Source: Pseudomonas sp. A-1
Lineage (GTDB): Bacteria; Pseudomonadota; Gammaproteobacteria; Pseudomonadales; Pseudomonadaceae
Assembly (NCBI RefSeq): GCF_004801855.1
Contig: NZ_SSTC01000035.1
Coordinates: 1 to 44,128 of the forward strand
DNA: 44,128 bases
Direction of reading: 5' to 3'
Each line of letters opens with the position of its first letter. Position 1 is the first letter of the stretch. Position numbers and translations under genes: made by a program. The notes beneath the pieces are model-generated. The model was given only the letters and a program-made list of their open reading frames with translations, had not been told where the DNA came from and made no database searches. Positions 26,325-29,498 of this stretch are shown here, in pieces.

Positions 26325-26552
26325 TCAGTCCAGCCATTCGGCCGGGGCGTCGCGGCGCAGCATCAGCTGGCACTGCTGGCTGTCCGGGTCGAAGGCGATG
26401 ATCGCCTCGCCGCGCTGCAGGGCCTGGCGCACCCGCGCGACGCGGGTGTCCAGCGGCGTGTCGTCGCCGTTGTCGGTGCCCTCGCGGGTGACGAAGTCCT
26501 CGATCAGGCGGGTCAGGGTGGCGGGCTCGAGCAGGTCGTGGGGAATCAGCAT
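26325..26552 (-). CDS. YheU family protein (UPF0270)
   Basis: A 75-residue protein starting MLIPHDLLEPATLTRLIEDF at ATG 26552, the canonical YheU N-terminus; VTREGTDNGDDTPLD is also typical. The function of the family is unknown. The longer frame up to 26588 would add twelve unrelated residues and is rejected. It lies 55 bases downstream of the CsoR-family gene on the same strand and may be the third gene of that unit. Confidence 0.88.
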   Translation of the reverse strand: MLIPHDLLEPATLTRLIEDFVTREGTDNGDDTPLDTRVARVRQALQRGEAIIAFDPDSQQCQLMLRRDAPAEWLD

Positions 26553-26607
26553 GGGGCATCTCGGCGACGCAGCGTCCCTGCTGCTCACGGGCGATCCTGG
26601 CGGGCGT

Positions 26608-26874
26608 TCAGGTGTATTTGGTGAAGATCGCGCGCACCCGGCTGAGGGTCGCGCGGCTGTCCTGTTCGGGATCGAGCACCGCCTCCTCCAGCAGGCACGC
26701 GAGCATTTCCTGGTAGGCGCGGTCCAGTGCCTTGCGCGCCGCGGCGAATTGCTGGGCGATCGCCTCGCAGTCCTCGCCGCGGCGGATCATCGCCTGCAGG
26801 CCGCGGACCTGACCCTCGATACGGGCCAGGCGCTTGAGCATGGCGTCCTGCTGGTGGGGGGGCGTGTCACTCAT
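26608..26874 (-). CDS. CsoR/FrmR/RcnR-family (DUF156) transcriptional repressor, unusual ligand set
   Basis: An 88-residue all-helical repressor. The core LKRLARIEGQVRGLQAMIRRGEDCEAIAQQ (residues 13-42, in parts) is diagnostic. Members sense Cu(I), Ni/Co, formaldehyde or persulfide through a conserved Cys on helix 2 plus ligands about 25 and 29 residues later. Here Cys36 is kept, but the position 25 residues on (His in CsoR, FrmR and RcnR) is Leu61. A second Cys is at 60, and position 65 is Ala. So the ligand pattern is neither CsoR, RcnR nor CstR, and the effector is unknown. The start overlaps the end of the heme-protein gene by 8 bases, showing tight coupling. Confidence 0.9.
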   Translation of the reverse strand: MSDTPPHQQDAMLKRLARIEGQVRGLQAMIRRGEDCEAIAQQFAAARKALDRAYQEMLACLLEEAVLDPEQDSRATLSRVRAIFTKYT

Positions 26875-27424
26875 TCGGGGTATCCAGGGTTCGACGCAGG
26901 GTGAAGGCGCCGCGCAGCTCGCCGAGGGCGAAGCCGCGGGCCTGGTCCTGCGGATAGCGTTGATCGATCACTGCGGCCAGTTCCGGCTTGAGCTTGCTGC
27001 CGTGGCAGGCCAGGCAGGGCTCGCCGGTGGGGATGGCCTTCATCAGGCGGAATTCGCCATCGACCACCTCGGCATGCCTGAGTTCGGCCACCGGCTCGCC
27101 GGCGGCGGCACGCGCGGCGAACTGCTCCAGCACCTGGCGCTCCCAGGCGTCCGGCGCGTTGTTCGGGTTGCGCACCTTCAGCGCGGTACGGCCGACCCGC
27201 CATGGCGCCTGGCTGTGCTGGGCGGCGATCTGCGGTGCGAGCAGCTGGCAGGCTTCCACGGCCTTGACCGGGCCACCATCCTGCATGGCTGCCTTCACGG
27301 TGTCCAGCAGCTGCTGCTGGAACGGCGGAATCAGTGCGGCGCCCTCGGCGGCGAGCTGCTGGGTGTCGGCGGCCATGGCCGGAGCGGCGAGGGTGGCGAG
27401 CAGGGCGAGACTGGCAATGCGCAT
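26867..27424 (-). CDS. Periplasmic monoheme c-type DUF3365 protein
   Basis: A 185-residue exported protein. It has a signal peptide (MRIASLALLATLAAPAMA, cleaved before ADTQQL), a helical N-terminal part with Cys59, and a DUF3365/Tll0287-like domain. One CXXCH heme-attachment site, CLACH, is at residues 137-141 in the context PTGEPCLACHG. AGGAG precedes the ATG. DUF3365 domains are often fused to sensor kinases, and stand-alone versions are thought to sense redox state or small ligands; here it stands alone. It is first in a unit with the CsoR-family repressor and possibly yheU, behind a promoter that carries an operator-like inverted repeat. Confidence 0.85.
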   Translation of the reverse strand: MRIASLALLATLAAPAMAADTQQLAAEGAALIPPFQQQLLDTVKAAMQDGGPVKAVEACQLLAPQIAAQHSQAPWRVGRTALKVRNPNNAPDAWERQVLEQFAARAAAGEPVAELRHAEVVDGEFRLMKAIPTGEPCLACHGSKLKPELAAVIDQRYPQDQARGFALGELRGAFTLRRTLDTPNE

Positions 27425-27454
27425 GGAGAACTCCTGTAGGTGGCGCTTTCAAGG

Positions 27455-27468
27455 TACTGTGGGGAGTA
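27455..27468 (-). promoter_or_regulatory. Candidate operator of the CsoR/RcnR-family repressor
   Basis: TACTGTGGGGAGTA (as read on the plus strand): TACT and AGTA arms around a G-rich six-base core. It resembles the RcnR/FrmR operator form TACT-G(n)-N-AGTA. It covers part of the predicted -10 box of the heme-protein promoter, so binding would block transcription of the repressor's own operon. Confidence 0.55.
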
Positions 27469-27493
27469 TCTTGGGGCGGCCGGCCAAAAGCAA
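27465..27493 (-). promoter_or_regulatory. Candidate promoter of the heme protein-repressor operon
   Basis: On the minus strand: TTGCTT (27488-27493), a 17-base spacer, GATACT (27465-27470). The -35 hexamer overlaps the tail of the mnmC terminator. Confidence 0.45.
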
Positions 27494-27516
27494 TCGCCGG
27501 GAGTCGCTCCGGCGAT
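27488..27516 (-). terminator. Terminator of mnmC
   Basis: ATCGCCGG (27493-27500) pairs with CCGGCGAT (27509-27516) around an 8-base loop. On the minus strand it is followed by TGCTTTTGG, some 20 bases after the mnmC stop. Confidence 0.65.
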
Positions 27517-27536: not shown

Positions 27537-29498
27537 TCAGCGACCGCGGATCAGTTCGCGCAGCAGGAAGCGGCTGGGGTGGCAGGCTTCGGCGACCGGG
27601 CGCGGCAGCGGCAGCGGTTCGTCGTCCAGCCAGGCGGCGATCAGCTCGCCGGACAGCGGCGCACTGATCAGGCCGCGTGAGCCGTGGCCGCAATTGACGT
27701 ACAGGCCTTCCAGCCAGGGCGCCGGCGTATCGATGGGGCGGCTGGCGTCCTTGCCCAGGGCTGCGTAGGCGGCGCGGAACGCGCCGGCGTCGACCAGCGG
27801 GCCGATCAGCGGCAGGTAGTCGGCGCTGGTGCTGCGGAAGGCCGCGCGCCCGCCCAGGGCCGCCGGGTCGAGCCGGTCGCAGTGCAGGGCCTCGCTCAGG
27901 ACGGGGGAGATCTGCCTGAGCATGCCGAGGTTGTCGAGGTGCTCCTCGGTCGACAACGCCAGGTCGTCGCGCTGGAAGTTGAAGCTGGCGCCCAGGGTAT
28001 GCTCGCCGCCGCGTACCGGTGCGACGTAGCCCTCGGCGCACAGCACGGTCTTCAGCGCGCGGCTGGCTGCGGTGGCCGGCAGGCGGCTGATCTGCCCGCG
28101 GATGCGCTTGAGCCTGAGGTGGGCGGCGGCGGCGAAGCGGCCGATCTCGCTGGCGGTGCACAGCACCGCGACCGGCGCCTCGGCCAGCAGGCACTCGCCC
28201 TGCCAGGCCTGCCAGCGGTCGTCGATCCGGCGCAGTTCGAGGGCTTCGAGGTGGGGCAGCACGCGGATCGCGGGATGGTCGGCGAGCCGGCGGCACAGTG
28301 CGGGCGGATGCACCCAGCCGGCCTCGGCGAACCACAGGCCGCCCTGCGCCAGCGGCAGGCCGGCAAGTTGGCTGGCCTCGGCGGCATCCACCGCGCGCAG
28401 CAGGTCCGGCGGGAAGGCGGCGGCCAGGCGCTGCTGGCGCTCGGCTTCCTTGCCGTCGAAGGCCAGCTGCAGCACGCCGCAGGCGCTCCAGTCGTCGCCT
28501 GCCTGCAGGCGCTCGAGCAGGCGGCGGGTATGGCCGAAGCCGCCGACCACCAGCTGCGACAGGGCGGTGCCGTGGGCGGAAAGCTTGAGGTAGAGCACGC
28601 CCTGGGGGTTGCCCGAGGCCTCCTCGGCCAGTGCGCCGTGGCGCTCCAGCAGGGTGACCTGCCAGCCGCGCATGGCCAGGCTGGCCGCGGTGGCGCAGCC
28701 GGCCAGGCCGCCGCCGACCACCAGCACCTGACGGCTGCCCGGCGGCTGCGGCGGGCGGGCGTACCAGGGCTTGCCGGCTGCGGCGGGGGAACCCCGGAAG
28801 TCGCCGGCGAGCATCTCGCGCTTGTGGCCGAAGCCCTGGACCTTGCGCATGGCGAAACCGGCCTCGCCGAGGCCGCGGCGCACGAAACCGGCGCAGGTGA
28901 AGGTGGCCAGGCTGGCGCCGGGGGCGGACAGCCGGGCGAGCTGGGCGAACAGCGCCGGCGTCCACATCTCGGGATTCCTGGCCGGCGAGAAGCCGTCGAG
29001 GAACCAGGCGTCGACCCGCGCATCCAGCTGCGGCAGGCAGTCGAGCACATCGCCCACCAGCAGGGTCAGGATCACCCGACCGCCGGCGAAGGCCAGACGC
29101 TGGAAGCCCGGGTGCAGCGCGAGGTACTGCGCCTGCAGCTGGCTGCTCCAGGGCGCCAGCTCCGGCCACAGGGCCAGGGCGCGCTCGAGGTCGCTGCGGG
29201 TCAGCGGATACTTCTCGACGCTGACGAAGTGCAGGCGGGCATCGGCCGGCGCCGTCTGCTCGAACAGCTGCCAGGCGCAGAGGAAGTTGAGGCCGGTGCC
29301 GAAGCCGGTCTCGCCGATCACCAGGCGCCCGCCGGCCGGCAGGGCGGCGAAGCGCTCGGCCAGCCGGTTGTGGGCGAGGAACACGTGGCGGGTCTCCTCC
29401 AGCCCCGAGGCGCGGGAGAAGTAGACGTCGCCGAAGGTGCGCGAGTGCGGCTGGCCCTGTTCGTCCCAGTCGAGCTGGGCATGCGGTTGGTCGGTCAT
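27537..29498 (-). CDS. mnmC: tRNA 5-methylaminomethyl-2-thiouridine biosynthesis bifunctional protein MnmC
   Basis: A 653-residue bifunctional enzyme finishing the wobble uridine modification mnm5s2U34 in tRNAs such as Lys, Glu and Gln. The N-terminal methyltransferase (about residues 1-235) has the SAM motif VIGETGFGTGLNFLCAW and the DUF752 segment DAWFLDGFSPARNPEMW. The C-terminal FAD oxidoreductase (about 255-640) starts with the Rossmann motif VVGGGLAGCATAASLA and ends with NCGHGSRGLISAPLSGE. Both halves look intact. It is divergent from pap; a TAGAAT box lies at 29529-29534 on the minus strand. Confidence 0.96.
   Translation of the reverse strand: MTDQPHAQLDWDEQGQPHSRTFGDVYFSRASGLEETRHVFLAHNRLAERFAALPAGGRLVIGETGFGTGLNFLCAWQLFEQTAPADARLHFVSVEKYPLTRSDLERALALWPELAPWSSQLQAQYLALHPGFQRLAFAGGRVILTLLVGDVLDCLPQLDARVDAWFLDGFSPARNPEMWTPALFAQLARLSAPGASLATFTCAGFVRRGLGEAGFAMRKVQGFGHKREMLAGDFRGSPAAAGKPWYARPPQPPGSRQVLVVGGGLAGCATAASLAMRGWQVTLLERHGALAEEASGNPQGVLYLKLSAHGTALSQLVVGGFGHTRRLLERLQAGDDWSACGVLQLAFDGKEAERQQRLAAAFPPDLLRAVDAAEASQLAGLPLAQGGLWFAEAGWVHPPALCRRLADHPAIRVLPHLEALELRRIDDRWQAWQGECLLAEAPVAVLCTASEIGRFAAAAHLRLKRIRGQISRLPATAASRALKTVLCAEGYVAPVRGGEHTLGASFNFQRDDLALSTEEHLDNLGMLRQISPVLSEALHCDRLDPAALGGRAAFRSTSADYLPLIGPLVDAGAFRAAYAALGKDASRPIDTPAPWLEGLYVNCGHGSRGLISAPLSGELIAAWLDDEPLPLPRPVAEACHPSRFLLRELIRGR

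Follow-up and report, generated by a model that had tools for sequence, protein, structure and literature searches.

Genes and promoter of the operon

The window, the whole 44,128-nucleotide stretch of Pseudomonas sp. A-1 DNA that we analysed, carries on its minus strand, in this order, mnmC, a gene for an exported mono-heme protein, a gene for a CsoR-family repressor and yheU. The features of the region are as follows:

27537-29498, minus strand: mnmC, the neighbour upstream of the heme gene (Pfam)
27493-27516, minus strand: hairpin resembling a terminator, lying between the mnmC and heme genes and touching the -35 hexamer (hairpin scan)
27488-27493, minus strand: -35 hexamer TTGCTT, followed by a 17-base spacer (sequence)
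27465-27470, minus strand: -10 hexamer GATACT (sequence)
27455-27468, minus strand: predicted operator TACTCCCCACAGTA (TAC-N8-GTA), overlapping the -10 hexamer (sequence pattern)
26867-27424, minus strand: gene for an exported mono-heme c protein of 185 aa, PF11845 (DUF3365/Tll0287-like, sCache_heme) (Pfam, 79.6 bits)
27248-27250, minus strand: codon of Cys59, the predicted axial thiolate ligand (Cys in 97/97 homologues)
27002-27016, minus strand: CLACH heme c attachment motif (CxxCH in 97/97 distinct homologues spanning the site)
26608-26874, minus strand: gene for the CsoR-family repressor, PF02583, 88 aa, two-cysteine CstR-like clade (Pfam, 74 bits)
26767-26769, minus strand: codon of Cys36, the first predicted sensing thiol (54/54 distinct relatives at >=65% identity)
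26695-26697, minus strand: codon of Cys60, the second predicted sensing thiol (54/54 relatives; alignment to InrS and other PDB chains)
26325-26552, minus strand: yheU/UPF0270, the downstream neighbour (NCBIfam PRK00304, 148.5 bits; PF06794)

The sequence-only reading had described an exported heme gene overlapping a CsoR-family gene by 8 bases, and this is borne out by the shared bases 26867-26874 and by the profile matches of both products, PF11845 at 79.6 bits (cut-off 24.1) and PF02583 at 74 bits (cut-off 22.8), the latter placing the repressor in the CsoR/RcnR (DUF156) family. Its placement of yheU 55 bases beyond the repressor stop also holds if translation starts at 26552, which is the probable start since the profile aligns only from residue 13 onward of the open reading frame. 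Among the loci read, yheU adjoins the pair only within the window's genus (L002-L009 and L028/L147), and we therefore set it aside as a part of the system; it is probably a downstream neighbour outside it. The upstream gene, mnmC, marks a common site of the heme gene, which follows it in 21 additional loci with the repressor located elsewhere. Two terminator-like hairpins were found in the region, against 0.4 expected.

The promoter reported earlier, TTGCTT-17-GATACT (27493-27465, minus strand) with TACTCCCCACAGTA lying over its -10 hexamer, is likewise present, and a strict sigma-70 scan found no promoter at this site. Across genomes a TTG box stands 16-18 bases upstream of the -10 in 9/16 heme-first promoters (0.54 expected) and 6/17 repressor-first promoters (0.45 expected) that contain the strict element. 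The 44-kb window holds three TAC-N8-GTA sequences with a G/C-rich centre, and among these a stretch of four consecutive G or C is unique to TACTCCCCACAGTA. As a pattern, this putative operator has the pseudopalindromic form, a G/C tract between TAC and GTA ends, that is a mark of the CsoR family.

The heme protein and the sensor residues of the repressor

The heme protein consists of a single domain, with no further Pfam family above cut-off in its 185 aa, behind an N-terminus that resembles a signal peptide (judged by eye). It has a single CLACH (residues 137-141) and, as a PF11845 match with CxxCH, belongs to sCache_heme; its only sequence match in the PDB is Tll0287 (chain 5b82, E 4.7e-12). 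The counts of 97 homologues given above cover matches that span residues 59 and 141, the others having been left out. By its sequence the protein fits Cluster 1 of sCache_heme (stand-alone, axial Cys), and Cys/His ligation of the heme is predicted. Such Cys/His-ligated c-hemes recur in sulfur enzymes, for example SoxXA, TsdA and DsrJ.

The closest described counterpart is a stand-alone homologue from P. putida, of the same family and likewise with CxxCH and Cys at position 59, which in the available text of a preprint (PMC12889525) is a low-spin c-heme protein with Cys59 as axial ligand, redox-like behaviour and weak NO binding, and whose spectra are altered by the C59A exchange. That text gives the P. 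putida protein no pathway and no link to sulfur metabolism ('operon' and 'thiosulfate' occur 0 times and 'sulfur' only inside a species name). Our literature survey, which covered mainly openly accessible papers, found no title or abstract start in which sulfide or a CsoR-family regulator is connected with the DUF3365/Tll0287 hemes, and in the accessible part of PMC9230427 DUF3365 and rhodanese appear only as separate table rows.

In the repressor, alignment to PDB chains places Cys36 at the first cysteine position of CsoR, but puts Leu61 at the position of the metal-site His and Ala65 at that of the second Cys; by this alignment the repressor lacks the Cys-His-Cys ligand set of the Cu/Ni-sensing CsoR and InrS proteins. 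All 54 relatives at >=65% identity keep Cys36 and Cys60 and are without the metal-site His and second Cys. At 45-65% identity the same pattern is seen in 12/20 relatives, a further 6/20 keep Cys36 and not Cys60 (four of the six with metal-type His and Cys), and in the remaining two (L134, L135) both cysteines are lost. The count took only matches spanning residues 36-65, which left out two Salinisphaera loci (L050, L051) where Ser replaces Cys60. The NCBIfam models for FrmR, RcnR and RicR score 36, 33 and 34.1 bits against cut-offs of 133, 138 and 175. Of the 'thiol- or metal-responsive' repressor suggested from the sequence alone, the thiol half is thus upheld by the two conserved cysteines, whereas the metal half finds neither the His nor the second Cys of the metal site. 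In L134 and L135 (genomes G112 and G098) the orthologues that have lost Cys36 and Cys60 together lie near cydAB; the joint loss suggests that these cysteines may act as a pair.

In appearance the repressor is CstR-like, a probable regulator of (per)sulfide oxidation. CstR (CsoR-like sulfurtransferase repressor) of Staphylococcus aureus and YrkD of Bacillus licheniformis are also CsoR-family proteins with two conserved cysteines and are linked to sulfurtransferase, SQR and dioxygenase genes (PMC9774590, PMC9918477, as far as their accessible text goes). Persulfide causes Cys31 of one CstR subunit and Cys60 of the next to be joined through di- to tetrasulfide bridges (PMC9774590), and YrkD no longer binds DNA once exposed to elemental sulfur (PMC9918477). 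The cysteine geometry differs, since the second Cys comes 29 residues after the first in CstR (PMC9774590) and 24 in the window repressor, where Cys60 directly precedes the metal-site His position and lies five residues ahead of the second Cys of CstR. In chain 7mq1 that Cys aligns with Ala65; the chain is identical in sequence to 7mq2, which is named CstR in PMC9774590. The repressor would work like CstR, yet by its cysteine positions it is no member of CstR.

Occurrence of the element, the repressor and the heme gene

Scanning the window's own genome with the degenerate pattern TACYCCNNNNRGTA gave 11 rows, or nine distinct sites, one being the window promoter. A backwards-read control gave 16 matches against these 11 rows; the raw number is not enriched, and the evidence is the placement of the sites. 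Two of the nine precede dioxygenase genes, and three more precede rhodanese, OsmC and CydP genes, five in all. Contig C163 has two of them. One is followed by a pair of rhodanese genes and a gene of the YgaP type and is flanked on its other side, at ~60 bases, by the start of a CydP gene; the other is followed by a Blh-type dioxygenase gene, a peroxiredoxin gene and a flavoprotein gene. The site on C235 is upstream of a dioxygenase, a sulfurtransferase-SQR and a SulP-like ORF (SulP by eye), that on C55 is upstream of OsmC, and that on C166, close to where the contig ends, precedes a second CydP gene by ~120 bases. Another, on C1 (L236:3033), is upstream of FixG-, FixH- and cation-transport-ATPase-type genes and may be due to chance or to a link with cbb3 oxidase assembly; two of the nine lie inside ORFs. 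The small module proposed in the earlier reading is therefore not upheld as an isolated one, the same element standing before OsmC, CydP and three operons (two with dioxygenase and one with rhodanese genes), and orthologues of the repressor lying near sulfur genes.

Both CydP genes, which code for small cytochrome oxidase subunits (L232:137-442, L235:3187-3408), are close to operator-like sites (~60 and ~120 bases), hinting that the bd oxidase may be in the regulon. The genome encodes only two PF02583 proteins, and the promoter of the second, which adjoins a cation-efflux (PF01545) gene, contains another kind of C-tract, ATACCCCCCTATA (L001:1380-1500).

Our counts across the family, which throughout take no account of phylogeny, show that the element at dioxygenase genes goes with the repressor. 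Among the matches listed, the strict element is found in 41/48 dioxygenase promoters of repressor-bearing genomes (0.62 expected) and in 0/40 of genomes without the repressor (0.35 expected), a difference with a Fisher value of 4e-18 that ignores kinship, the 88 promoters having been hand-picked among the matches listed and the 48 including two from the window's genome. Each of these 41 elements lies 36-49 bases before the aligned start of the dioxygenase protein. In the six genera where both states occur among the matches listed, the element is present in 32/37 promoters with and 0/18 without the repressor; a seventh genus (g9) has it in 0/2 and 0/5. A spacing of 8 stands out, as other spacings from 4 to 13 reach at most 3/48 and 2/40 in the same promoters. 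Among the seven exceptions, four (G070, G093, G126, G140) have a dioxygenase gene that follows the repressor gene, with the element in the promoter of the latter, and three (G099, G123, G139) have neither the element nor such an arrangement. These sequence comparisons support the inverted repeat as a conserved element tied to the presence of the window repressor.

At the heme gene, TAC-N8-GTA with a G/C-rich centre is present in 16/16 adjacent heme-first promoters (0.12 expected from shuffles), or in 17/18 once L009, which has it, and L029, which is without it, are added; the gene caller had missed the heme genes of these two loci, so that the first count looked only upstream of the repressor there, and some of the 18 genomes are close relatives and not independent cases. 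In repressor-first loci the strict element precedes the repressor in only 17/47 (0.29 expected), the 47 including L009 and L029, which are really heme-first. These promoter counts dropped loci with identical repressor DNA and those with repressor identity <58%. Of the heme genes that lie at a distance from the repressor, 2/27 examined (34 exist) have the strict element in their promoters. A one-mismatch form occurs in 20/21 mnmC-linked unlinked heme copies (0.22 expected), a figure that describes more than it tests, given that the form was defined after these promoters had been viewed; it occurs in 0/6 other copies and in 0/12 heme copies of genomes without the repressor.

Repressor orthologues were found in 89/298 genomes of the window's family (E 2.4e-28 or better). 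At least one match to queries for MBL-fold (persulfide) dioxygenase, rhodanese, YeeE, SulP, TauE or sulfurtransferase-SQR lies within 3 kb of the repressor in 43/68 distinct loci, against 0/62 control pieces, a contrast favoured by queries drawn largely from the same loci and by controls that are the heme loci of other families minus the rhodanese- or repressor-bearing L189, L191, L193 and L195. L183-L186 and L222 also fell outside the control range used, and loci with identical repressor DNA or repressor identity <55% were dropped. The 25/68 loci with none of these sulfur genes within reach include all eight of the window's genus, seven of which are short (~3.2 kb).

The heme gene is present in 53/89 genomes with the repressor and 13/207 without it (Fisher 1.7e-22, kinship ignored; the 207 are 296 minus 89 and assume that all 89 are among the 296, the repressor having been surveyed in 298 genomes and the heme gene in 296). 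The expectation that the gene pair and the inverted repeat would be conserved was hence partly realised, with the element conserved and tied to the repressor and the pair conserved in part of the family. Four of the 53 genomes (G063, G123, G196, G200) have heme remnants or broken copies beside the repressor. At L128, L130, G200:C10:36251-36710 and G123:C1:895052-895159 such remnants or broken copies directly precede a repressor gene free of stops, which suggests that the pair was once wider and that the repressor can outlive the heme gene. In the repressor-less genomes, the heme gene lies near sulfur genes in 10/12 of those examined (13 exist, G073 being left out as its gene is at a contig edge), with YeeE and a dioxygenase in three, TauE in five, ArsR-YeeE in two and none in two.

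Beyond the family, we sampled 40 heme loci of 76 matched genomes at the level of the order (one locus, L222, belongs to the window's family). In 7/40 a rhodanese gene lies within ~0.3 kb, and in five of these seven the stretch also holds cydAB; 1/40 has a relative of the repressor, and the other 32/40 showed none of the queried genes in stretches of up to ~5 kb on each side. One of the seven rhodaneses and one OsmC following it, both in L184, were checked by profile. The strict element was found within 450 bases upstream of the heme gene in 2/40 (L189, L222), and in L193 (G321) the element is followed first by the repressor gene, then by a gene for 75 aa and then by the heme gene. Five loci of family f38 (L184, L185, L186, L191, L195) have the order cydA-cydB-rhodanese-heme, in several with an OsmC-like gene next, and no repressor of the window clade in 10 kb. 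At L198, L201, L206, L215 and two further order-level loci the heme homologue is near an opposite-strand gene of ~150 aa, whose L201 copy has a weak likeness to desulfoferrodoxin (PF01880, 21.7 bits, under the 22.2 cut-off).

In a sample of 350 genomes of the class, 10 have the repressor (E up to 1e-10) and 98 have the heme gene (E up to 1e-12). Two of the eight repressor genomes from outside the window's family have the heme gene, neither adjacent to the repressor (in G601 they are ~10 kb apart on one contig), and as the sample held no adjacent pair in these outside genomes we set aside a general spread of the pair beyond the family.

Proposed regulation, alternatives and implications

We consider it likely that the repressor is a persulfide-sensing, CstR-like protein that derepresses the heme protein together with sulfur genes. 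The reduced repressor oligomer would bind TAC-N8-GTA elements, one of them overlapping the -10 of its own heme-repressor operon and others upstream of persulfide-dioxygenase, sulfurtransferase-SQR, rhodanese, OsmC and CydP genes. On a build-up of persulfide or polysulfide, Cys36 and Cys60 would react, probably to form a di- to tetrasulfide bridge, and the modified repressor would leave the DNA, allowing sulfur-oxidation enzymes, the exported heme protein and more repressor to be made. The heme protein, with its predicted Cys59/His ligation, may then act as a periplasmic redox partner in the handling of sulfide, sulfane sulfur or sulfite; its part is the least certain step. Since the same element stands at sulfur genes and orthologues have sulfur-gene neighbours, the trigger is more likely to be persulfide than Cu, Ni or formaldehyde.

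That the repressor instead senses a metal (Cu, Ni/Co) or formaldehyde, the heme protein serving metal or aldehyde stress, appears improbable to us. The CsoR-family fold would suit such a role, as would the RLAR stretch, which matches the RLXR mark of CsoR proteins in the accessible text of PMC3902906, the C1 site before FixG-, FixH- and cation-ATPase-type genes, and the likeness of the element to Streptomyces CsoR sites and to the TACT-Gn-AGTA form of RcnR and FrmR (TACT-G6-N-AGTA for RcnR). The element is, however, one base shorter than the RcnR site (N8, not N9; PMC3902906), and RcnR and FrmR differ from the window repressor in sensor residues and neighbours. Against a metal or formaldehyde sensor are also the replacement of the ligand positions by Leu61 and Ala65, with both ligands missing from all 54 close relatives, the sub-threshold scores of the FrmR, RcnR and RicR models, and the fact that 5/8 sites found in this genome beyond the window precede sulfur or CydP genes. 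Still more improbable, in our judgement, is binding of the heme promoter by the second PF02583 protein or another regulator; the former is likewise of the CsoR family and has the C-tract ATACCCCCCTATA, which is similar to the one-mismatch sites of unlinked heme genes, but TAC-N6..12-GTA was not found in the 600 bases around its gene start and, across genomes, the element tracks the window repressor.

A different objection grants the repressor its sulfur regulon and takes the heme protein for a general redox or NO-linked cytochrome unrelated to sulfur, sharing the operon for the sake of autoregulation or through the mnmC position. We think this rather unlikely, although it would fit the redox character and weak NO binding of the P. 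putida homologue (PMC12889525), the 32/40 order-level loci with none of the queried genes, and the class sample, in which the repressor is rare and the heme gene common. It sits less well with the heme gene lying near YeeE and a dioxygenase, TauE or ArsR-YeeE in most of the repressor-less genomes examined, or with the rhodanese genes that adjoin it in seven order-level loci, five with cydAB. Persulfide-responsive control that includes the heme protein remains our preferred reading.

Compared with CstR and YrkD, this system has an exported heme protein encoded in the repressor's own operon, its element also stands at genes far from the repressor, and its host belongs to a Pseudomonas-type family. 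A closer parallel in scope is TTHA1953 of Thermus thermophilus, a two-cysteine CsoR-family protein that controls dispersed sulfur-oxidation genes, including those of c-type cytochromes, and so provides a precedent for such control within the family (PMC10318464, on its accessible text). It differs in its cysteines (Cys39/Cys68, spacing 29), in a 20-base operator, TACNNTACNNNNGTANNGTA, without a G-tract, in a Sox and not an SQR-dioxygenase pathway, and its binding did not drop with NaHS (PMC10318464).

Our data suggest that CsoR-type sulfur control reaches Pseudomonas-type bacteria; the Gram-negative sulfur sensors named in the accessible part of a review are of the ArsR and FisR types (PMC9774590). 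The repressor clade would carry out the chemistry of CstR with a second arrangement of its cysteines, and the element is simple enough for regulons to be mapped over many genomes. A broader proposal, to which we give roughly even chances, is both that a separate persulfide-sensing CsoR-family clade, its second cysteine moved by five residues, acts in many Pseudomonadaceae as a master switch for the oxidation of sulfide, and that stand-alone Tll0287/DUF3365 cytochromes are a new periplasmic (per)sulfide/sulfite component which it turns on. Stand-alone Tll0287-type heme proteins are widespread and without a pathway in the literature surveyed, and their tie to a persulfide-type regulon would offer a direct test of their role.
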